Source of the DNA: Oscillospiraceae bacterium
GTDB taxonomy: Bacteria > Bacillota > Clostridia > Oscillospirales > Oscillospiraceae
Direction of reading: 5' to 3'
Assembly (NCBI GenBank): GCA_022792495.1
Contig: JAAWBD010000085.1
Location: forward strand, 1 to 64,000
DNA: 64,000 nucleotides
Shown here: positions 20,671 to 33,345 of the stretch, in pieces
Layout: every line of letters starts with the position of its first letter
Position numbering within the stretch: position 1 is the first letter of the stretch
Notes under the pieces: generated by a model
What the model saw: the letters and a program-made list of their open reading frames with translations, nothing else
Told to the model about the DNA's origin: nothing
The model's database searches: none
Made by a program: the position numbers and the translations under genes

Positions 20671-21282
20671 TCAGATTTCTTCCGCCACCCGCTCACAGCG
20701 GATGGTGGTGCGGTACTGCCCACCCAAAGTACAGGTAAACAGACTCAATGCCCAGTCTCCCGACAGCATCCGCGCCGCCTCCTCTGGGTTCAGCTGCTCC
20801 TTCTCCGCCACAGCGTACTCGAAGCAGTTTCCATCGATGTCGATGAACTCCACCCGATCCCCAATCTCCAGTTGGATCAGCCCCCCAAAGTGGTGGGGAT
20901 AATTGTGGGCGCACACCACCAGATCGTCCAGATAGGCCGACCCCGCATACCGGCACGGGGCCACCTTCAGCTTCTTGTAGCTCCAGGTTCGCATCACCGG
21001 CAGATCAATGCCGATGGCCGGAATACTGATATAGCCGATGTATTCCTCCCCATCCAGCTCCACCGCCGGCATCTCCATCTCCGGCGCCAGCTCATGATCC
21101 GGGATCATCCCCTCGGGAAGCTCCCGCTGAGCCGGGATGATCTGCTCCATCTGCCGCATCACACTCGCCACGCTCTCAGCCGCCCGGCTCTCGTCCCAAA
21201 GGTTATACCCGGCCAGCCCAGCGGCTCCCAGCAGCAGGAGAAGCCCCAGCGCCATCAGCAGCGTTCCTTTTTTATTCCTCAT
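20671..21282 (-). CDS. Sortase
   Basis: YIGYISIPAIGIDLPVM; VVCAHNYPHHFG (His); LFTCTLGGQYRTTIRCERV (Cys...Arg). Confidence 0.88.
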   Translation of the reverse strand: MRNKKGTLLMALGLLLLLGAAGLAGYNLWDESRAAESVASVMRQMEQIIPAQRELPEGMIPDHELAPEMEMPAVELDGEEYIGYISIPAIGIDLPVMRTWSYKKLKVAPCRYAGSAYLDDLVVCAHNYPHHFGGLIQLEIGDRVEFIDIDGNCFEYAVAEKEQLNPEEAARMLSGDWALSLFTCTLGGQYRTTIRCERVAEEI

Positions 21283-22357
21283 CCTCGCCGCTCCATCTCC
21301 GCCGCCGGGCAATCCCCAGCAGCAGCAACGCCGCGCCCCCCATGGCCAGCAGGGGCACCGGCCACCAGAGCTGTCCTGTCTGGGGCAGCCTGGCCAGAGG
21401 CGGCTCCTCATCCTCCAGCTCCTCTTCCTCGGAAGGCGGCAGCTCCTCCTCCCACCCGCTCAGGGGGGGCTTCCAGTCCGTGATGTCCTCTTCCTCTGGC
21501 GGCAGCTCCTCCCTGTTCTCCGCAGGCGGCGTCTCCGGGCCTCTCTCCAGATAGCTGTTGGTGATCACAAAGGTGATCCCCCCCTGGGAGACCGATACGC
21601 TGTACCCCTTGGACTCCCGCTCCGCCACCTGCCAGTTCCCTCCGGCGTCCAGTCCCGTCCAGTCGTGCCGCCAGTTGTTCCCTTGGTTCAGCTCCACGCT
21701 GTCATAGACCTGGCCATCCCGGAGCAGCTCCACCGTCACCCTCTCCGGCCGCTCCTCCTCGTGCCCCCGGTCCTCCCAGACCTTCAGCACTCGATAGCTC
21801 ACCGTCTCCGGATCGGTGGAATCTCCCCCGCCGGTAGACCTCCGCCCATACTTGGCGTAGGTCACCACATCCGCCTCCCAACTGCGCCCGTCCGCAGTGT
21901 AGGGTAGCGACAGCAAAAAGGGAGTTGGAGTGTACACATACCCATCCAGACTTCTGGCATCCCCCACGATCAGATACAGCCCCTTCTCCAGCTGGGAGAA
22001 GCTCACCCTCCCCTCCCCGTCAGTCAAGCCAGCGGTGGTAGGCAGGATCTGATCCCGGGCCACATATCCCGATAGGGTCATGGCTCGAGCCAGCCAGTCG
22101 GAGGCAGTCACCTGATACTTCCGGTACTCCTCCAGCAGTCGGAAGGTCATCGCGTCCGTGATCTCAGCCACCCGGTAAAGGCGGAACTCCACCCCCTCCA
22201 TGGCCCGATCCTCATCCACCACATAGCTCAGCTCCAGGGAGCACTTCTCCACCTCGTCCAGCGCGGCGGCAAGACCCCTCCCAGGCAGACAGGCTCCGCA
22301 CAGCACAAAGCACAGCAGAAACGCCGCCACGCGCCGGAGCTCAATTTTTCTTCTCAT
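21272..22357 (-). CDS. LPXTG-anchored (LPQTG) SpaA/Cna-B type minor pilin
   Basis: Signal peptide; GVEFRLYRVAEIT; Cna_B-like VTVELLRDGQVYDSVELNQGNNWRHDWTGLDAGGNW; LPQTG-TM-RRRR sorting signal. Confidence 0.88.
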   Translation of the reverse strand: MRRKIELRRVAAFLLCFVLCGACLPGRGLAAALDEVEKCSLELSYVVDEDRAMEGVEFRLYRVAEITDAMTFRLLEEYRKYQVTASDWLARAMTLSGYVARDQILPTTAGLTDGEGRVSFSQLEKGLYLIVGDARSLDGYVYTPTPFLLSLPYTADGRSWEADVVTYAKYGRRSTGGGDSTDPETVSYRVLKVWEDRGHEEERPERVTVELLRDGQVYDSVELNQGNNWRHDWTGLDAGGNWQVAERESKGYSVSVSQGGITFVITNSYLERGPETPPAENREELPPEEEDITDWKPPLSGWEEELPPSEEEELEDEEPPLARLPQTGQLWWPVPLLAMGGAALLLLGIARRRRWSGEDEE

Positions 22358-23258
22358 GTTCCGATCCCTGCCTTTCCCCACCCTGTCCGGGCGGCGGAGT
22401 GGTCTCCATTCTCTTTCCCCTTTTGATCCGTTTTCCGGATCTTTTCTTTTGGGGGCTCCTGGTCATGGACCATACCATCAAAAGCGCCAGCATAGGCGCC
22501 GCCGCGATGGGGGCCACGATCACCGGGTCAATGCGCATGGCCTCCGCCGTGACCCGTACCACCGCCGCGTTCTCCCGGTTGGCCACCCGGTGTCCCCGCA
22601 CCAGCAGCCGGTGGCTGTTCACCCCATAGGGCGTACATGTCACCAGCGTGCAGTAGTCCTTCCCCTCCTCAATGGCCAGATCCTCCAGCTCCGTGGGCAA
22701 CACGATGTGGATCTGATCCACCTCATAGGTCATGGTCTCGTTCAGGATCTGCAGCAGGAAGATATCCCCCTCGCTCAGCCGGTCCAAATCGGTAAAGAGC
22801 TTCGCGCTGGGCAGCCCCCGGTGCCCCGACAGCACGCTGTGGGTGGTGACCCCCCCTACCGGCAGGGAGGTTCCCTCCAGATGCCCCACCGCGATCTGCA
22901 GCACCGCCTCGTCGGTTCCATGGTAGATAGGCAGCTCACAGTGGATCTCCGGGATACTGATATACCCCATCACCCCTGTACCGGAAACATCCAGCAGGCT
23001 GTTGTACCACTCACGCTCCTCCTCCGGCATATAGAGCGGATTGCTCTTCTCCGCCAGGCTCCTGTTGTACTCCCCCGCCGCCCTCCACATCTCCTCATAG
23101 AGGGCACTGTCCATCTCATGGATGCTCTCGGCATAGCTGGCAATGGCCCGGGACTGATGGAAGGAATTCCAGTAGTCGCTGACCGTGGGATACAGCAGCA
23201 GCCCCACCCCGATCAAAAGGGTCAGACTCAGGAGCAGATTGACCAGTTTCTTTTTCAT
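22341..23258 (-). CDS. Class C (pilin-polymerising) sortase
   Basis: LSGHRGLPSAKLFTDLDRLSEGDIFLL; YCTLVTCTPYGVNSHRLLVRGHRV; N- and C-terminal TM segments. Confidence 0.93.
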   Translation of the reverse strand: MKKKLVNLLLSLTLLIGVGLLLYPTVSDYWNSFHQSRAIASYAESIHEMDSALYEEMWRAAGEYNRSLAEKSNPLYMPEEEREWYNSLLDVSGTGVMGYISIPEIHCELPIYHGTDEAVLQIAVGHLEGTSLPVGGVTTHSVLSGHRGLPSAKLFTDLDRLSEGDIFLLQILNETMTYEVDQIHIVLPTELEDLAIEEGKDYCTLVTCTPYGVNSHRLLVRGHRVANRENAAVVRVTAEAMRIDPVIVAPIAAAPMLALLMVWSMTRSPQKKRSGKRIKRGKRMETTPPPGQGGERQGSEHEKKN

Positions 23259-23342: not shown

Positions 23343-24818
23343 TCAGTCCTCTTCCTCAGCGCCCATGCGCTTCTTGGTCACCAGCAGGATCCCAGCCCCC
23401 AGGGCCAGCGCGCCGCCGGTAATGTAGAAGATAGTGGTGCCGATACCGCCGGTGCTGGGCAGCTCCGCGCCGGTCAGGTTCTCCACCCGGAGTCCTCCGG
23501 ACAGATAGACCGTCTTGCCGTCGACCTCGTTGGTCTCCACCTTGCCCAGGCTCTTCTCCGGGCCGACCTCCACAAGAACGCGCTCATTCAGCTTGTTGTA
23601 GCCGCTGGGCTGCTTGGTCTCCTCCAGGTAATAGCTGCCCTCGCCCAGGCCCTTGATGGTGGCGATGCCGGCGGCGATAACGGTGGTGCCGGTCTCCCCC
23701 TCCTCAGCGGGACGGTAGTAGCTCCCATTCACCTCGTCCTCCACGAACACCAGGGAGACAGCCTCCCCCGCCTCAGCGGTGGTGTAGAGAGCGAACTCGG
23801 CCCCCGTCAGGATCTGGTTGCCGGAGGCCACGCTGCTGGTCTTGGCCAGATCAAACTCAAACAGCTCGGAATCGGTGGTGCTGGGCTTGGTCTCCACGGT
23901 GTGGTTGTTCTCGCCGTAATCCATGTGGGCCACGTTGTTCACCGTGTCCACCGTCAGCGCCTCAGCGGTGATGGTGGCGGAGTAGGTCACCACGATCTGG
24001 GTCTCCTCGGTGATGGTGTCCAGATAGCTCTGGGCAAATACCAGATGGAAGGTGCAGCCGTCGGTCAGCCCATCGGTGACCACAGTGTAGTTGGCGGCGT
24101 CCACACCGGCCACGGCCACATCATTGTTGAAGCTCAGCCCCTTGCCCATGGCATCGTGCATCACATAGGCCTCCGCCCCCGGCTGGGCGGTGATGGTCAC
24201 CTTATAGTCCTTGCTGTCACCCACGCTGGGCTGGTTCTCGTCGGCCTTCTTGACCTCCTCCTTCACGATGACCGGCTTTTTGTTCTTCTCGGTGATGGTC
24301 ACCGTGGTGTTGGTGGTGTCCAGGGCACACAGGCTGCCCACAGTGGAGGAGACCAGGTAGTAACCCAGAACCAGCTCTCCAAAGCTGGCAGTGGTGGTAG
24401 CCTCCGCCTCAGTCCCCTCGGGAGCCGCCTCAGTCACGGTGACCGCGTCAGCCTTCACGCTCTTCTCCACGGCCCAGTCCATGGCGGCCTTGGCCAGGGC
24501 CTTCACATCCGCCCCGTCCTTCCAGGTCACATAGCCCTGGTCGTCCACGTTCACATAGGCGGCGCCGGGGGCTCCCTCCGCTACAAAGCCGGCCCAATTG
24601 GCGTTGACCTTATAGGAGTGGGGTGCGTTTTCCTCATTGCTGCCCTCTCCGCCATAGCTTTCCAGGTCGAAAAGCCGGTAGGCCTTGTACTCCTGCCCAT
24701 AGGGAGCCTTGTCAATGGTGATGCTGGCTGTTTCTCCCGCGGCAAAGGCGGGGGCGGCCAGGCACAGGGTCATGACCAGGGCCAGCGCGGCGCTGGCAAG
24801 TCTCTTCATCGTTTTCAT
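23343..24818 (-). CDS. Major pilin, isopeptide-forming SpaH/EbpB-like, LPSTG
   Basis: Signal peptide; E-box-like GSYYLEETKQPSGYN; LPSTGGIGTTIFYITGGALALGAGILLVTKKR. Confidence 0.92.
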   Translation of the reverse strand: MKTMKRLASAALALVMTLCLAAPAFAAGETASITIDKAPYGQEYKAYRLFDLESYGGEGSNEENAPHSYKVNANWAGFVAEGAPGAAYVNVDDQGYVTWKDGADVKALAKAAMDWAVEKSVKADAVTVTEAAPEGTEAEATTTASFGELVLGYYLVSSTVGSLCALDTTNTTVTITEKNKKPVIVKEEVKKADENQPSVGDSKDYKVTITAQPGAEAYVMHDAMGKGLSFNNDVAVAGVDAANYTVVTDGLTDGCTFHLVFAQSYLDTITEETQIVVTYSATITAEALTVDTVNNVAHMDYGENNHTVETKPSTTDSELFEFDLAKTSSVASGNQILTGAEFALYTTAEAGEAVSLVFVEDEVNGSYYRPAEEGETGTTVIAAGIATIKGLGEGSYYLEETKQPSGYNKLNERVLVEVGPEKSLGKVETNEVDGKTVYLSGGLRVENLTGAELPSTGGIGTTIFYITGGALALGAGILLVTKKRMGAEEED

Positions 24819-24906
24819 TGTTTTGTCTCCTTTCAATATGTGGTGCCTGAGGTGAATCTGTCTCTTTTGTGTATTCCTCTTGCTCTCTCTCCTTGCCGGG
24901 GAAGGT

Positions 24907-27900
24907 TTATCCCCATACCCCCTCCCCCTCTCTCTGACTCCACTGCTTCTTTTTATACATCAGGAAAGCCGCCCCCATCAGGGTCAGGACTCCCATTGTA
25001 TACCAAAGGGTGGTTCCGCTGCCGCCTGTGGCAGGCAGCTCGTAGTCGGCGGTGTTGATAAAGGTCACCCATGTCAGCTTCCCCGGCGTCACCGCCCCGG
25101 AGGTCACTGCCGACACGTCGGCTCCAAACCGCTCCACCTTCTCCTCGCCGTTCTCTCCCACCACCGTGTGGATCTCGGTACGGTAGCCCTGCTTGAACTC
25201 CCCCACCTCAGTGATGGTGTACCGGGTGTTCTCCGGCAGATGGTGGATCACCAGGATCTCCCCCGGCTCCAGCTCAAAGATCCCGTCGTTTCCGATGGCG
25301 TCTCCCCCATCCCGGTCGGAGGTGCTGATCTGTCCGTCCGGATCCCGGTGGAGGTACTGGATCTCATAATTGTCCGCCCCGTCCAGGCCCAAGGTGAACC
25401 GGAAGGGCGTATTGTCCTCCATGCCGCCCATCTGCTTCTCGATCCGGATAGTCCCCGTGTCCTGTTCGATCAGATCCTGGATCTGGGTCTCCAGATCCAC
25501 TCCCACCACCGTGGGCAGGGTGTACTGCATCCAGCAAGTGGAGCCCGAGGCTCCCCGCTCCGTGTAGAAGAAGGTGAGCCGGTAAGTTACCCGGGTATCC
25601 GGGGCCCACTCGTCGGTGCTGATATAGTCCCAAAGATCCACATACTGGCCTGCGGAGGGATGCACACCACCGATATCCACGATCTGCCGGGAGCCCTTCA
25701 GCGTCTCATTCCCGTCCCCATCCTTCTCCACCTGGCTGAGGAACACCCACATGTCATCGTCGCCGAAGAAGTAGTACTCCAACGGCCCGATATAGTTCTT
25801 GGTCAGCTCAAAGTCCACGGCAAAATTCATGCCGAAGTAGCCGTTGTGATCCTTTCCGTCATCGCTGTAAGGCAAGCTGGCCGCGTTGGCCTGCCCGTCA
25901 TTGGCCCGCTTCACCACATCCTTCTTGCCAAAGATGATGTCGTGTCCCTTCGCGCCCCAGGTGCTGGCCGAATCCATGGGCCAGAAATCGTTGCTCCAGA
26001 CCCCGGAGTTCAGCCGGAAGCTGTCCAGCTCCCTGGCCACAGTGCCGGGGATCTGGGTCAGGGTGTAGGTATCCCCCACCCGGCTGAATTGGATCCCGTC
26101 AATCTCCTGGAGCAGGGTCTTTCCCTCCTGGGCCCCGCCGCCGAACAGGACAGGCCCCACGATATCGTCGTCAAAGAACACATCATTCCCCTGCTCGTTC
26201 ATCCCCTTCACCAGCCCATAGGCACCGCCCTTAAAGGTGATATCCACCCGGTTGGGCCACTTGCCGCTTGCGTTGCGCTGGTTGATCAGATTCCCCAGGG
26301 AATCGGTGCCATTTTTCAGGCTTTCCGTTGTGCCCGTATTGGCATTTCCAAAGGCAAACCGGGCCTTGCCCCAGGGAATGTCCCCCCCATTGATCCCGAA
26401 GTTCTTGCCATCTCTGCTTGTGATCATATTTGTGGCGCCCACCCCGTGGGTGCCGTCGCTGATATCGTAATCATAGAAATCCGCCGGGAAAACCTCATCC
26501 TTTTGCTGGGGGTCGTAGATCAGCCGGATCACATCCTCCCCCTCCACCAAAATGTAGTTCTCATTGGCCTGTGCCGTCTCAGGGCGGTTGGTAAACCGGG
26601 TCACCCCCTCCTCATAGGGGAGCACCAGCCAATCCGCCGCTTCCGTACTGGTAGGATCTCCCTGTCCCCCCTTCTGGATCCAGATCTCATGGACTCTATA
26701 TTGGATATCCTGCACATTGCTTACCATATTAAAGTACTGCAGGCCGGGGGCGTCGAAATATTCAAACCGGCTGCCCTTCCGGGGATCATAGCCCCCCTCC
26801 TCGCCCCGCTTGTAGATCTCCGTCAGGATCCGCTGGGTCTCCACCTGACCGTCCGCCTTCACATAGATATTACGGACAACTGCGGAGGTCGCTCCCTTTT
26901 CGGGGAAGCTGCCCCCCACCTTCCGGCTGGTGTCCATCACATCCAGCGCGGTCCCGCTACCGTTCGCGGTGACCAGCCGATCCATCCAGGCGTAGTACTG
27001 CACATAGAAAACCACGTTGGCCCCCTGGGTCACCGAGTAGCCTACAGTGCCCCGCCGCTGGGTATATGCCTTAAAGTGGAGCTCCATGGCCTCACTCTTC
27101 TCCTCAGCGGTTTCCCCCTCCAGCTCCAGGGTCATCAGCCCCAGATCCTCGGGGCTGTCCAGCATCTCCTGGAAGGCCTGGGTGGGCTCCACCTCCAGGC
27201 TCACCTCGCACCCGGTCAGATCCACGGCCTCTCCGTTGTAGGTCAGGGTGTAGTCCAGAGCTCCCACCATCATGACCTCGCCGTCCTCGGCCGCCAGGCT
27301 GGCGTACTCATCATAGGCCTCCATATCCTCCGACTGGGTGACCGCCAGCTGGAACCCGGTCTCCTCTCCCTCCGTCTGGGGCACCAGGGCGATCCCTTCC
27401 GCCCGAAGGGTCAGGAGCACCGCTCCGTCCTCGCTCTCCGCGGTAAAGCTCTCCTGCAGCTCCACCGCCTCCGGCTCGGGCAGGGGCTCTTCCAGGCATT
27501 GCTCCACATGGGTGTGCTCGGGAATGTTACACTTCAGCTCCCCATCCTCAAAGAAGCACTCCTCCACATGGGTGTGCTCCATCAGGAAGCCGCAGTAATA
27601 ATGGATCTTCTCCTCCAGCTCCAGGGCCAGATAGCAATTGTCGTCGTGGGTATGCTCCTCCAGAGCGCAGGTAAGCGTCCGCAGCTCCTCCGTCTCCTCC
27701 GCCCCCTCGGCGTAGCAGCTCTCACTATGGCTGTGGCCCTCCCTCTCTTCCAGAGTGCAGGCCTCCCGGGTCACCGTCTCAAAGCAGGCCTCCCCGTGGC
27801 TGTGGCCTTCCCTTTCCTCCAGAGTACAGCTCAGTTTCTCGCTCCACTCGTAGCAGCTGTCGCTGTGCGCATGGGGAATGGACTCGGTGACAGTCTCGGT

Positions 27901-28449
27901 AACGGTCTCCATCACAGTTTCGGTCACCAGCTCGGTGACGGCCTCGGTCTCCACCACCGTCTCGCCGTTCTCGTCCACTCTCTCCCTCTCCACATCCACG
28001 CTGATCTCCCGGCTGATTTCCCGGGGAACCTCCCGGGTCACCTCCCGCTCCACGGTCTCCTCTGTCTCGGTGCAGATCAGCTCCCCCCGAAGGGAAACGT
28101 AGCAACTCTCATCATGGCTGTGGCCCTCCCCCTCAGTGAGAGCACAGGTCAGCTCCTCAGTCTCTCCCGCCCCACAGCTCTCACTGTGCGTATGGCCCTG
28201 GGCCTCCGCCAGCTCGCAGGTCGGCTCGCCGCTGCGGGTCACCGTCTCCACAGTGTAGCATTCCTCAGTGTGGACATGCTCGGGGATCTCGCACTGCAGG
28301 GGAGTGGTCATGGTGATGGCGGGAAGGATCAGGGCGTAGGTAGTGCAGAACACGACCACACCGGCCAATCCGGTGACCACCTTCTGCCAGCGGCTTTCCT
28401 TCCGCTGGGTAGCCAGATACTGCTTCGCCTGCCGTCTGACTCGTTCCAT
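24907..28449 (-). CDS. Large LPXTG (LPATG) pilus tip/adhesin-like protein with N-terminal Cys/His repeats and fibro-slime-like domain
   Basis: 1180 aa; nine C/H repeats (HTHxxxCY type); FAVDFELTKNYIGPLEYYFFGDDDMWVFL...IVDIGGVHPSAG fibro-slime/PA14-like; LPATGGSGTTLWYTMGVLTLMGAAFLMYKKK. Confidence 0.88.
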   Translation of the reverse strand: MERVRRQAKQYLATQRKESRWQKVVTGLAGVVVFCTTYALILPAITMTTPLQCEIPEHVHTEECYTVETVTRSGEPTCELAEAQGHTHSESCGAGETEELTCALTEGEGHSHDESCYVSLRGELICTETEETVEREVTREVPREISREISVDVERERVDENGETVVETEAVTELVTETVMETVTETVTESIPHAHSDSCYEWSEKLSCTLEEREGHSHGEACFETVTREACTLEEREGHSHSESCYAEGAEETEELRTLTCALEEHTHDDNCYLALELEEKIHYYCGFLMEHTHVEECFFEDGELKCNIPEHTHVEQCLEEPLPEPEAVELQESFTAESEDGAVLLTLRAEGIALVPQTEGEETGFQLAVTQSEDMEAYDEYASLAAEDGEVMMVGALDYTLTYNGEAVDLTGCEVSLEVEPTQAFQEMLDSPEDLGLMTLELEGETAEEKSEAMELHFKAYTQRRGTVGYSVTQGANVVFYVQYYAWMDRLVTANGSGTALDVMDTSRKVGGSFPEKGATSAVVRNIYVKADGQVETQRILTEIYKRGEEGGYDPRKGSRFEYFDAPGLQYFNMVSNVQDIQYRVHEIWIQKGGQGDPTSTEAADWLVLPYEEGVTRFTNRPETAQANENYILVEGEDVIRLIYDPQQKDEVFPADFYDYDISDGTHGVGATNMITSRDGKNFGINGGDIPWGKARFAFGNANTGTTESLKNGTDSLGNLINQRNASGKWPNRVDITFKGGAYGLVKGMNEQGNDVFFDDDIVGPVLFGGGAQEGKTLLQEIDGIQFSRVGDTYTLTQIPGTVARELDSFRLNSGVWSNDFWPMDSASTWGAKGHDIIFGKKDVVKRANDGQANAASLPYSDDGKDHNGYFGMNFAVDFELTKNYIGPLEYYFFGDDDMWVFLSQVEKDGDGNETLKGSRQIVDIGGVHPSAGQYVDLWDYISTDEWAPDTRVTYRLTFFYTERGASGSTCWMQYTLPTVVGVDLETQIQDLIEQDTGTIRIEKQMGGMEDNTPFRFTLGLDGADNYEIQYLHRDPDGQISTSDRDGGDAIGNDGIFELEPGEILVIHHLPENTRYTITEVGEFKQGYRTEIHTVVGENGEEKVERFGADVSAVTSGAVTPGKLTWVTFINTADYELPATGGSGTTLWYTMGVLTLMGAAFLMYKKKQWSQREGEGVWG

Positions 28450-28538: not shown

Positions 28539-29123
28539 TCAGCCCACCGGCCCGATCCCCTCCCAGGGCCAGATCCGGAAGATCAGCCTGCCCACGATCT
28601 GCTCGTCAGACACACATCCCACCGCCGTATTCCGGGAATCCAGCGATACGCTGCGATGGTCTCCCATCACAAAGATCCGGGATTCCGGCACCTGGTAGGG
28701 AAGCTCAATGTTGCACTGCCCCAGGGCTTTTTCCTGCAAATAGGGCTCCTCCAAAACCTCTCCGTCCAGGTAGACCGTCCCGTTCTCATCGATGTCCACC
28801 CACTGTCCGGCAGTGGCGATGACCCGTTTCACCAAAACCTTGTTGTCAAAGTAAAACGCGATCACATCGCCGGGCTTATACTTGGAGCCGTTCATGGACA
28901 CCACGATATCCCCTTCCAGCAGGTTGGGCGCCATGGAGGTTCCCGTGATCTGAAGCACCGGCAGCAGCAGAGTTGCGATCAAAACTGCCGCAGCTGCCAC
29001 GGTGATAAGGGTATAAATGGTGTTGCGAAGTACGCTTCGGTAGCGCTTTCGGTAATTTTCCCGGCGCAGCTCGGCTTCCAGCACCTCCACCGAGGGCCGC
29101 TTTTCCGGAAACCGTCTTTTCAC
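28539..29123 (-). CDS. lepB: Signal peptidase I (S26), probably pilus-dedicated
   Basis: ITGTSMAPNLLEGDIVV (Ser); KVLVKRVIATAGQWV (Lys); VMGDHRSVSLDSR. Confidence 0.93.
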   Translation of the reverse strand: MKRRFPEKRPSVEVLEAELRRENYRKRYRSVLRNTIYTLITVAAAAVLIATLLLPVLQITGTSMAPNLLEGDIVVSMNGSKYKPGDVIAFYFDNKVLVKRVIATAGQWVDIDENGTVYLDGEVLEEPYLQEKALGQCNIELPYQVPESRIFVMGDHRSVSLDSRNTAVGCVSDEQIVGRLIFRIWPWEGIGPVG

Positions 29124-29632
29124 GTTTTTTCCTCCCGGGTTCTATTCTGGGTCCGACGGAGCAGCCATTCGGTCAGCTCCTCATGATCGGTCAGGTACTG
29201 CTCCAGCCGGCGGGACACCTCGTTCCAATAGCTGTCCGCCTCCCGCTGGGCCTGGGCGGTCATCTCCTCACAGGAGCGCTTGGTCTCCTCCTCCAGAGTC
29301 CGGCACCGCTGGGCGGCCTCGGCGATCATGGCCTCCGCCCGCTCCTTGGCCTTGGTCTCCAGCTGGTCGGCCTGGAGACTGTACCGTGTCTCCATGATCC
29401 TGATGTTCTCCAGATATTGGGCGGCGGCCTCGTCAGCGGCCTGGAACACAGCATTGAGCCGGAGGGCCGCCTCAGCCATAGTTCCGGCCTCCTGAAGGAT
29501 GATCTCCCGCTCCTCCAGCTTTGCCTGGGCCAGGGCCAACTCCTCCTCCAGGGCATCGCCCTTTTGGGTCTGCTCAATAAGCATCTGCAGCAACTCATCC
29601 CGGCGAAGCTTCTTCATCTCTTTGCCAGTCAT
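29120..29632 (-). CDS. Coiled-coil protein, first gene of pilus operon
   Basis: Almost entirely heptad-like (LEEELALAQAKLEEREIILQEAG... RCRTLEEETKRSCEEMTAQAQREADSYWNEVSRRLEQ); start at MTGKEMKK or further upstream to 29665. Confidence 0.65.
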   Translation of the reverse strand: MTGKEMKKLRRDELLQMLIEQTQKGDALEEELALAQAKLEEREIILQEAGTMAEAALRLNAVFQAADEAAAQYLENIRIMETRYSLQADQLETKAKERAEAMIAEAAQRCRTLEEETKRSCEEMTAQAQREADSYWNEVSRRLEQYLTDHEELTEWLLRRTQNRTREEKT

Positions 29633-29670
29633 GCTCTCTTTTTCGCCTCCCGCGGAATTCAACACTCTTT

Positions 29671-29877
29671 GTTATGCCCCATTCGGGGGCATAACACAAA
29701 GGCGTACGCCTTTGCCCTTTTCCTTTTTTGCACATTATAGCATATGCCGGTTACAGAATCGGTTACAAATTACACATTTTCTTTCAAAGTATTTCGCCGT
29801 TTTTAACAAAATTCAGTGTAAGATTTTAGGCAATATGCCAGTCACACCGGCAATATTTTAGGAGTATAGTCCTTCTT
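29671..29877. repeat. Copy A of a diverged ~200 bp direct tandem duplication (promoter plus hairpins)
   Basis: Same order of elements as 29878-30082: hairpin 1, hairpin 2, ATTATAGCA, GGTTAC-N6-GGTTAC, CAATATG. Confidence 0.8.
29734..29766 (-). promoter_or_regulatory. Pilus operon promoter A: extended -10 TGCTATAAT with two upstream TGTAACC sites
   Basis: Minus strand TTTGTAACCGATTCTGTAACCGGCATATGCTATAAT; sites 12 bp apart, 9 nt from the -10. Confidence 0.65.
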
Positions 29878-30082
29878 GCTATGCCCCGTAGAAGGGGCAT
29901 AGCACAAAGCCGTACGGCTTTGGCGTTTTCTGGATTACAGCTACATTATAGCACACGCCGGTTACAAAAACAGTTACAAATCGCATATTTTCATTCAAAT
30001 TCCACCGTCATTTTAACCAATTTTATCCAGTCTTTTTTTGTGCAATATGTATCCTCTCTTCCTCCTCCCGGTTACAAAACGA
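29878..30082. repeat. Copy B of the diverged tandem duplication
   Basis: Colinear with copy A; both hairpins conserved with compensatory changes. Confidence 0.8.
29945..29977 (-). promoter_or_regulatory. Pilus operon promoter B: extended -10 TGCTATAAT with two upstream TGTAAC sites
   Basis: Minus strand TTTGTAACTGTTTTTGTAACCGGCGTGTGCTATAAT; same spacing as promoter A. Confidence 0.65.
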
Positions 30083-30126
30083 TTCGCACAAGCTTGGTCA
30101 ATGTTTGCTTTTCCCTTGGATATCAT

Positions 30127-30155
30127 TTGACAGGCAGCACTTTTCATTGTAAAAT
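30127..30155 (+). promoter_or_regulatory. Sigma-A type promoter for the histidine kinase
   Basis: TTGACA-N17-TAAAAT, about 75 bp before the chosen ATG. Confidence 0.75.
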
Positions 30156-30228
30156 GATGAAAAATTTAACCAACAAAATGGTAGATCAATGCCGCCCTGG
30201 AAAGAAATCTGAGTTGGGAGGGATCGGG

Positions 30229-33200
30229 ATGTACCGCTGCCATATCCAATTTTATTTGCTGACCCATCGGATAGAGGAATTCAGATGCATTCAGGAGATT
30301 CCTCCCCTGGATGCCTTTACCCATGACTTCTCGATCTCCGACTGCATCCAGGCCCCCGCCCTGGAGGGGGCGGATGTGATCCTGGCCGATCTGCGGGAGC
30401 TAAATGCCGATGAGGCCCTGACTGTCCTGGCCGCAGGAAAGAAGAAGCAGGCAGAGCTGATCCTGCTGGCCGAGGAGGGACAGCTGGAGGAGACGGCTCT
30501 CCTGCCGGAGTTGGTGGCAGACCTTTGGCGGCTACCCATGACAGAGGGCGAGCTGCGCTTCCGGTTTTCCCGCTGGCAGAGAGAGTTCAAGCGGACCAAG
30601 GACGCCTGGCAGACCAGCCAGTTTTTGGAGGAGACCATCAACCACATCCCCAACCTTATTTGGTATAAGACCAAGCACGGTATCCACGAGAAGGTAAACG
30701 ACAGCTTCTGCCAGACGGTAAACAAGACCAAGGCCCAGGTGGAGGGCCGCGGCCACGCTTACATCTGGGATGTGGAGCAGGATGATCCAGCCTGTATTGA
30801 GTCAGAGCGGATCGTCATGACCAGCAGAGAGACCTGCGTTTCCGAGGAGACCGTGATGACCGGGGATGGCACCAAGCTACTGACCACCTATAAATCCCCC
30901 CTCTATGATCTGGACGGCAGCGTGATGGGCACGGTGGGCGTGGCCATCGATGTGACCCAGGAGCGGGCCTATGAGCAGGAGATCGTACGGAAAAACCGGA
31001 CTCTGGAGACCCTTTTCACCACATTGGACTGCGGTATTCTCTGCCACACGGTAGACGGCGCCCACATCCTTAGCATCAACCGGGCGGCCCTGACTTTGCT
31101 GGGCTACTCCTCCCAGCGGGAGATGGAAGCGGCCGGCTTTGACATGGTGGCCGAGTCCGTGCTGGAGGAGGACAAGGAGCTTCTGCGCCGGGCCATCCGC
31201 AGTCTGAAAACCGTTGGGGACACGGTGAATGTAGAGTACCGGGTGATCCACAGCGACGGCGAGATACTGCACATCATGGGCAGCATCAAGCTGCTGGAGG
31301 AAAACGGCAGACTCTTTTATCAGCGCTTTCTCCTGGATGTGACAGAGCAGAAGCTCCAGGCAAAGCGGGAGGAGCAGCACCAATTCGGACTGATCCAGGC
31401 CCTGAGCGTGGACTATAACCTGGTGTGCTACTTCGATCTGAACTCAGGGCGGGGAAGCTGTCTGCGGATCAGCGACTGCCCCTACGGGGTGCTGGAATCC
31501 CTTTTTGCCGGGGAGCCCATGATGGATGAGAGCCTGGCCGGCTATATAGAGACCTGCGTCTACTCCGAGGATCGGGAGATGATGCGCCAGACCCTGTCCC
31601 GGGATCACCTGAGAAAGACCCTGGCGGAAAAGAACATTGCCTACGCCAACTACCGCACCATCTGCAACGGGGAAATGCGGTACTTCCAGATGAAGGCGGT
31701 GCTGGCCGGCTCCCAGGACGAGAGCTGCGGCATTGTGCTGGGCTTCCGGAGCGTGGATCAGGAGACCCGCAGGGAGATGGAGAAAAAGAGCCTGCTGGAA
31801 AACGCTCTGGCCCAGGCCAACCGGGCCAATGAGGCCAAGAGCATCTTTCTGTCCAACATGTCCCATGACATCCGCACCCCCATGAACGCCATCATCGGCT
31901 TTACCACTCTGGCCTCCTCCCACATGGACAACCGAGAGCAGGTGGAGCTATATCTGAAAAAGATCATGGCCTCCGGCAACCATCTGTTGAGCCTGATCAA
32001 CGATGTGTTGGATATGAGCCACATTGAAAGCGGAAAGATCCAGCTGGAGGAAAAGCGGTACAGTCTGCCGGAGATCCTTCAGGATCTGCGCACCATGGTG
32101 CAGGGGGACGCCCAGGCCAAGGGGCTGGAGCTTCACATCGACAGGGCGGACATCCGGAATGAGGATATCTACTGCGACAGGCTTCGGCTCAACCAGGTCT
32201 TTTTGAATCTGCTGAGCAACGCCATCAAATACACCAACCCCGGGGGCTCCATCCACATCCTCGTGTCCGAGAGGCCGGCCGCCGTTCAGGGCTACGCCAA
32301 CTATGAATTCCAGGTACGGGATACGGGGATCGGGATGAGCCAGGAGTTCCTCGGCCGGATCTTCGACCCCTTTGAGCGGGAACGAAATTCCACCATCAGC
32401 GGCATTCAGGGCACAGGCCTTGGTATGGCCATCACCAAAAATATCGTGGATATGATGGGCGGCTCCATCACGGTGGAGAGTCGGCAGGCGGAGGGCACCC
32501 TTGTCACGGTCTCCTTCCCCTTCCGCATCGATGCCGACGAGACCCTTCTCCCCCTCCCGGAGTGGGAAAATAAACGGATCCTGGTGGCGGCCGAGCAGGG
32601 GGAGGATATTCTCCAGGTCCTGCGCCGCCTTAAGATCAGCGGCGAGGCCCTGCCGCCGGAGGAGGTTCTCCGGCGATTGAATGAGGGCGGGGAGGCCGCC
32701 GTCTATCACGCCTACCTTGTGGACTGGCCCTGCCCATATGGAACCGATATTCTCCGGGCCATCCGCAGCCACAGGGGAGAAAGCGCCCCGGCGGTGGTTT
32801 TGTCCGAGGCCGACTGGGCGGATATTGAAGCGGAGACCAGACAGGCTGGGGCCGCCGGATACTGCGGTAAGCCCCTGTTTCTGTCCCAGCTCCGCTCCTG
32901 CCTTGCCTCCCTCTCCGGTGAGGGAAACGCCGAAGAGGAGCAGGCACCAGAAAGGCCTCCACTCCGGTCAGGGCGGATTTTGCTGACTGAGGACAACCTG
33001 CTGAACCAGGAGATCGCTGTGGCAATCCTGGAGGAGGCCGGATTCCAGGTCGAAGTGGCCGACAACGGGGCCATCGCGGTGGAGATGCTGGGCCGGGCGG
33101 AGCCGGGCTACTACCAGTTGGTGCTGATGGATCTGCAGATGCCGGTGATGAACGGGTTTCAGGCCGCTGAGGCCATCCGTGCCCTGGAGGATCCCGCGTT

Positions 33201-33345
33201 GGCGGCTATCCCGATCATCGCCATGACGGCCAACGCCTTTGAGGAGGATAAGCAGGAGGCCCTGCGGCATGGGATGAACGGACACATCGCAAAGCCCATT
33301 GATGTGGGGATCCTTTTTGAGACGCTGGATCAGATCCTGAGGTAA
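30229..33345 (+). CDS. Hybrid sensor histidine kinase: PAS domains, HisKA, HATPase, degenerate receiver, C-terminal receiver
   Basis: SNMSHDIRTPMNAIIGF H-box; GTGLGMAITKNIVDMMGGSI G-box; LVLMDLQMPVMNGFQAAEAIR and HIAKPID receiver; start after GGGAGG RBS. Confidence 0.92.
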   Translation: MYRCHIQFYLLTHRIEEFRCIQEIPPLDAFTHDFSISDCIQAPALEGADVILADLRELNADEALTVLAAGKKKQAELILLAEEGQLEETALLPELVADLWRLPMTEGELRFRFSRWQREFKRTKDAWQTSQFLEETINHIPNLIWYKTKHGIHEKVNDSFCQTVNKTKAQVEGRGHAYIWDVEQDDPACIESERIVMTSRETCVSEETVMTGDGTKLLTTYKSPLYDLDGSVMGTVGVAIDVTQERAYEQEIVRKNRTLETLFTTLDCGILCHTVDGAHILSINRAALTLLGYSSQREMEAAGFDMVAESVLEEDKELLRRAIRSLKTVGDTVNVEYRVIHSDGEILHIMGSIKLLEENGRLFYQRFLLDVTEQKLQAKREEQHQFGLIQALSVDYNLVCYFDLNSGRGSCLRISDCPYGVLESLFAGEPMMDESLAGYIETCVYSEDREMMRQTLSRDHLRKTLAEKNIAYANYRTICNGEMRYFQMKAVLAGSQDESCGIVLGFRSVDQETRREMEKKSLLENALAQANRANEAKSIFLSNMSHDIRTPMNAIIGFTTLASSHMDNREQVELYLKKIMASGNHLLSLINDVLDMSHIESGKIQLEEKRYSLPEILQDLRTMVQGDAQAKGLELHIDRADIRNEDIYCDRLRLNQVFLNLLSNAIKYTNPGGSIHILVSERPAAVQGYANYEFQVRDTGIGMSQEFLGRIFDPFERERNSTISGIQGTGLGMAITKNIVDMMGGSITVESRQAEGTLVTVSFPFRIDADETLLPLPEWENKRILVAAEQGEDILQVLRRLKISGEALPPEEVLRRLNEGGEAAVYHAYLVDWPCPYGTDILRAIRSHRGESAPAVVLSEADWADIEAETRQAGAAGYCGKPLFLSQLRSCLASLSGEGNAEEEQAPERPPLRSGRILLTEDNLLNQEIAVAILEEAGFQVEVADNGAIAVEMLGRAEPGYYQLVLMDLQMPVMNGFQAAEAIRALEDPALAAIPIIAMTANAFEEDKQEALRHGMNGHIAKPIDVGILFETLDQILR

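Follow-up and report, generated by a model that had tools for sequence, protein, structure and literature searches.

In the 64,000-nt stretch of DNA analysed here (the window), two tandem promoters upstream of a sortase-pilus operon carry paired TGTAAC sites. The paired-site promoter is real and conserved, and both copies belong to a surface-structure regulon whose motif and geometry we document here. The best overall explanation, which we consider likely, is that this regulon is read by F0, an uncharacterised protein of ~400 aa encoded beside type IV pilus (T4P) operons, with probable c-di-GMP input. The candidate regulator, a third conserved promoter element and a set of leader hairpins extend a preliminary description of the two promoters.

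On the minus strand, the pattern TGTAAC-N6-TGTAAC-N10-TATAAT occurs twice upstream of the operon, each time with an extended -10 (TGC). The downstream copy occupies positions 29734–29767 (distal TGTAAC 29762–29767, proximal TGTAAC 29750–29755, -10 TATAAT 29734–29739) and the upstream copy positions 29945–29978 (distal TGTAAC 29973–29978, proximal TGTAAC 29961–29966, -10 TATAAT 29945–29950). With a position weight matrix of 28 related promoters, both window copies included, they scored 51.2 and 50.8 bits, respectively. The third-best place in the window scored 2.7 bits, and the best of 60 dinucleotide shuffles scored 15.0. Strand, positions and the 12-bp start-to-start spacing of the TGTAAC pair in both copies agree with the preliminary description. 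The 9-nt gap that it gave between the proximal site and the -10 is correct for TGTAACC and becomes 10 nt when counted from TGTAAC. It had also placed the proximal site over the -35 position; since the hexamers occupy -40 to -35 and -28 to -23 under the usual -10 numbering, they instead bracket that position. As it had stated, a good -35 is absent, the hexamers found there being CCGATT and CTGTTT. The further half-match that it reported near 30067 exists as the 12-mer TTTTGTAACCGG at 30068–30079 (minus strand), but it is a lone half-site scoring 2.6 bits. Having neither a partner nor a -10, it was rejected as a third promoter.

The sortases and LPXTG pilins present bear out the identity of the sortase-pilus operon. 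All of its genes lie on the minus strand, the first encoding a DivIVA/Wag31-like coiled coil (29120–29632, weak match, 4.5e-4), followed by signal peptidase I (28539–29123, TIGR02227, 3.5e-32). Domain matches then identify a large LPXTG adhesin with fibro-slime and DUF7601 regions (24907–28449), which is likely the pilus tip, a SpaH/EbpB-type LPXTG major pilin (23343–24836) and a Cna_B/pilin D1 minor pilin (21272–22381). Two sortases match PF04203 (22341–23267, 2.5e-24; 20671–21411, 6.1e-13). A PAS hybrid histidine kinase with a receiver domain, also assigned from domain matches, is encoded divergently on the plus strand (30229–33345); its start codon at 30229 is our choice inside the open frame 29881–33345.

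A whole-genome search yielded four TGTAAC-N6-TGTAAC pairs in the genome that contains the window, and further pairs are possible because this genome is 68% complete. Two of the four are the window copies, the third (C26:1738) precedes an exported-protein gene, and the fourth (C86:6530) precedes the small gene F1 and then an exported-protein gene. In the genus, one to five exact motif copies were present in 6 of 16 genomes, and one more genome had a single two-mismatch match that looked like chance. Equal frequency of the motif away from promoters would have spoken against the initial proposal; it was not seen, as the reversed pattern gave no match in the genus and the window holds no other site. 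Family-wide, 16 of 301 genomes carried a copy with at most one mismatch. The sites that we inspected precede F1 beside a T4P locus, sortase-pilus operons, or exported-protein/adhesin genes. In other families, the two half-sites of relatives drift jointly (TGTGAC, TGAGAC, TGTAAT) within a retained geometry (11- or 12-bp repeat). The window copies lie in the two units of a 78-nt direct repeat, 211 bp from each other and with 77% identity; an ordinary promoter that was recently duplicated in tandem, its paired sites having no function, would fit this. That account is refuted, since the same 34-mer is also found upstream of unrelated genes and, with other flanking sequence, in further genera; we give it a negligible probability. 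The original reading, an activator-dependent promoter in duplicate, is supported as the best one by the poor -35, the extended -10, the fixed paired sites and the conserved surface-structure target genes.

F0 is very probably a SARP-like activator that reads the paired site, and one not described in the papers searched. Its gene in the window's genome lies outside the window (G000:C86:12042-13307), in a string with genes for a REC-HD-GYP-GGDEF protein, an HPt protein and a hybrid kinase. F0 consists of an OmpR-like winged helix, a BTAD and a degenerate GGDEF domain. The BTAD, which follows the winged helix, matched PF03704 (8.8e-21). The winged helix matched Pfam Trans_reg_C below the cut-off (3.4e-4), and there the AlphaFold model matches EmbR and AfsR, the nearest solved structures to F0 by sequence. 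As a whole, the model (pLDDT 86) matches EmbR, AfsR and GGDEF domains. The arginine and aspartate of the I-site RxxD were present in 51 of 51 homologs; the GGDEF catalytic motif has been lost and reads S.SQ[FY]. Domain searches detected no receiver domain in F0. Searches of the open-access literature for SARP or BTAD regulators with a GGDEF domain returned nothing relevant.

The distribution of F0 is part of the evidence for its link to the site, which we consider very likely. F0 was found in 15 of the 16 motif genomes and in 54 of the 285 others among the same 301 genomes (Fisher p-value 9e-10), and the co-occurrence was also seen when counted by genus (p-value 1.6e-4); these p-values are optimistic because the genomes are related, and part of the co-occurrence is linkage, as F0 sits in the T4P locus. 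The single motif genome without F0 (G140) had a poor match without pilus context. In the genus of the window, a close F0 type was present in exactly the six motif genomes (p-value 1e-4, likewise optimistic). Applied to 52 named F0 loci, the matrix returned 40 sites of at least 15 bits and none in reversed sequences. Many of these sites lie directly before F1, including at loci without T4P genes; many F0 genomes had no site at the strict threshold. Among 30 orthologous sortase operons, the site preceded three of nine in F0-positive genomes versus none of 21 in F0-negative genomes. In genome G084, the gene order is F0, F1-like protein, sortase operon.

Direct repeats about one helical turn apart that replace the -35 are also typical of WalR, PhoB and VanR boxes; the WalR box is TGTWAH-N5-TGTWAH, and VanR repeats are 12 bp. 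An OmpR/PhoB-type response regulator (WalR- or VanR-like) might therefore bind the 11–12-bp repeats, with F0 being a mere neighbour in the T4P locus and the hybrid kinase that adjoins the operon acting in the same pathway. We regard this as unlikely. A response regulator predicts neither the restriction of the site to F0-positive genomes, nor the finding of F1 only alongside F0, nor a residue of F0 that changes with the half-site (see below). In addition, the window kinase has no DNA-binding output domain, F0 differs from these regulators in having no receiver domain, and the WalR spacing is N5 versus N6 in the window.

A deviating site was seen in genome G028, which has no close F0. There, TGTAATGCTTTG-TGTAATGG precedes TATACT at L238, some 100 nt ahead of a sortase-pilus operon. 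This is a variant site of the sortase operon, perhaps read by a more distant BTAD protein.

The geometry of the window promoters resembles that of SARP promoters. The direct repeats of known SARP promoters have a period of 11 or 22 bp, and 8 bp separate the last repeat from the -10; the afs box spans -40 to -19 with a poor -35, where the SARP dimer docks sigma region 4 (PMC10936776). The first repeat of the window motif starts at -40, and TGTAACCG lies 8 nt from the -10. Like AfsR, EmbR and the afs box, F0 and its presumed promoters combine an OmpR-like winged helix and a BTAD with direct repeats that start at -40 and lie ~8 bp from the -10, and with a poor -35. They differ in the C-terminal degenerate GGDEF domain, which replaces NOD/TPR or FHA, in the surface-structure targets in Clostridia, in the half-site TGTAACC, and in the repeat period, which is 12 bp in the window's family versus 11 or 22 bp in SARP promoters. 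Among five distant families with a clear site, the period was 11 bp in four (G552, G434, G537, G572) and 12 bp in G457.

Two other readings of the same layout were weighed. The sites overlap the core promoter, and the direction of F0 control is itself deduced, so F0 could act as a repressor, or the sites could mainly hold RNA polymerase off at low c-di-GMP. This seems very unlikely, given that every SARP protein studied with this site position is an activator (PMC10936776) and that a repressor would have little to repress because the -35 is poor. If an alternative sigma factor or a sigma-adapting factor of the WYL type read the repeats, this would fit the combination of a -26 element and a poor -35, which is also the PafBC-type promoter layout (PMC10936776). 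We consider it more improbable still: the extended -10 TATAAT of the promoters is normal, the surroundings of the sites showed no factor of this kind, and F0 fits better.

The F0 residue equivalent to AfsR T88, defined by the F0/AfsR alignment and the base contacts named in PMC10936776, changed together with the half-site. It is T where the half-sites are TGTAAC, A where the distal half-site is TATAAC or TATCAC, V in L203, whose site has TGTAATGG twice, and N in G434, G537 and G457, whose half-sites are TGTGAC or TGAGAC. L198 and L201 are exceptions to this pairing. A prediction was noted before looking at further genomes, with TGTGAC expected for the N-type G572, G591 and G474 and TGTAAC for the T-type G574 and G553. 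G572 proved to be as predicted, with four TGTGAC-N5-TGTGAC promoters on its F0 contig within ~24 kb of F0. G574 fits weakly (one TGTAAC/TGTAAT site with one mismatch), and searches of G591, G474 and G553 for the predicted site gave nothing convincing. In G537, where the F1 site was known beforehand, five TGTGAC sites were found on five contigs. The genes read downstream of these sites encode exported proteins, signal peptidase or F1; one site has no readable gene. Because phylogenetic trees place the residue changes in approximately three events, the covariation is supportive and not proof, and its interpretation as many independent events was rejected.

The TGTGAC promoters of G572 (L288, L297, L301 and L303) precede short exported proteins, a signal peptidase and a larger exported protein. 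The look of their signal sequences suggests that the short proteins are SipW-processed, which would point to matrix-fibre control in that family. A Pfam check did not confirm the exported proteins as SipW-type fibre proteins.

The conserved I-site of F0 argues for c-di-GMP input, which we favour by a narrow margin. Binding of c-di-GMP via a conserved I-site has a precedent in PopA (PMC12564702). Similar to the degenerate-GGDEF receptors PopA and PelD, F0 keeps the RxxD and has lost the catalytic motif; it differs from them in the fusion of the GGDEF domain to a DNA-binding SARP module, and its c-di-GMP binding is a prediction from sequence. At the RNA level, 9 of the 32 target loci examined have a c-di-GMP-I riboswitch downstream of the site; it is placed in the leader or else separates F1 from the adhesin gene. 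The window operon had no Rfam match to this riboswitch (RF01051) above the gathering score. In L031, L032, L033 and L042, the riboswitch separates F1 from the adhesin gene, a place that the hairpin pair takes in the window's genus. In Clostridioides difficile, surface genes (pili, adhesins) are likewise under c-di-GMP riboswitches (PMC6200980). The system proposed here differs by an added activator layer and by a window operon without a riboswitch.

F1 (L159–L206; G000:C86:6046-6462) is a protein of ~140 aa without a Pfam or NCBIfam match. Its predicted fold is a duplicated beta-beta-beta-alpha unit (pLDDT 82), for which no PDB match fell below E 0.37. Although it has RxxxR and NASWQG, its identification as a PilZ protein was rejected on the basis of these Pfam and PDB searches. 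In a sample of the class, F1 was present in 8 of 291 genomes, one of them the window's genome; all eight had F0, which was present in 28 of the 291. The F1 and F0 genes are 660 kb apart in G552. At T4P loci, the F1 gene is the usual target.

We infer DNA binding by F0, activation, c-di-GMP sensing and a role for F1, and these could be combined as follows. An F0 dimer would bind from -40 to about -17, each protomer contacting one of the two TGTAACC repeats. By sigma adaptation, as with AfsR, the dimer would recruit RNA polymerase and make up for the -35 contact that the promoter lacks. Through the I-site of its C-terminal degenerate GGDEF domain, F0 probably binds c-di-GMP; pili and adhesins would thus be made at high c-di-GMP, the level of which could be set by the REC-HD-GYP-GGDEF enzyme, HPt protein and hybrid kinase encoded near F0. 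In part of the regulon, the window operon not included, the c-di-GMP-I riboswitch in the transcript would provide a second check. F1 is a likely partner.

Little work has addressed how gut Clostridia, among them Oscillibacter and Flavonifractor relatives, decide on pili and adhesins, and no papers on this pilus/F0 system were found in the open-access literature searched. The candidate regulator, the exact site, the target list and the residue-to-base code make the proposal directly testable, and the regulator and its code are of more interest than the two window promoters themselves. If the proposal is true, the SARP mechanism that controls antibiotics in actinomycetes also serves surface colonisation in Clostridia, where it is joined to c-di-GMP at both the promoter and the RNA level. 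A wider generalisation is that c-di-GMP-gated SARP activators, together with F1, form a widespread Clostridia master switch that controls pili and adhesins, and possibly biofilm fibres as well, with a residue-by-base code across families and a second check by riboswitches. We put this forward tentatively, at slightly below an even chance.

Nearly all of the 38 promoters compared (the window copies and 36 related ones) have the third conserved element, YTGAANG, at a fixed distance of 20 bp on the upstream side of the distal repeat; these promoters were collected by hand, and some weak sites were left out. It reads TTGAAAG in the downstream copy (29781–29787, minus strand) and TTGAATG at the same relative place in the upstream copy (29992–29998, minus strand). 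The element may mark a third protomer, an alpha-CTD contact or another factor. An A-rich stretch comes after it.

Each promoter copy is followed by a palindromic hairpin and then by a second hairpin, both on the minus strand. In the downstream copy (29665–29714), these are the palindrome CAAAGGCGTACGCCTTTG (29697–29714) and a hairpin with arms at 29686–29701 and 29665–29680; in the upstream copy (29872–29922), they are the palindrome CAAAGCCGTACGGCTTTG (29905–29922) and a hairpin with arms at 29894–29909 and 29872–29887. No Rfam match was obtained for the hairpin pair. A role of the tandem hairpins as a terminator was rejected, as most have no run of U. The palindrome and hairpin are common to 13 leaders, in which the stems are altered yet still paired. 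Because the pair also precedes exported-protein genes lacking the motif, it was rejected as a signal of the regulon and is regarded as a separate leader element. In the genus, the palindromic hairpin AAAGGCGTACGCCTTT and its paired variants, with the second hairpin directly 3', occur in leaders of exported-protein genes; hairpin-pair leaders, with the promoter motif present or absent, were seen in the window and in L241, L244, L247, L248, L251 and L252.
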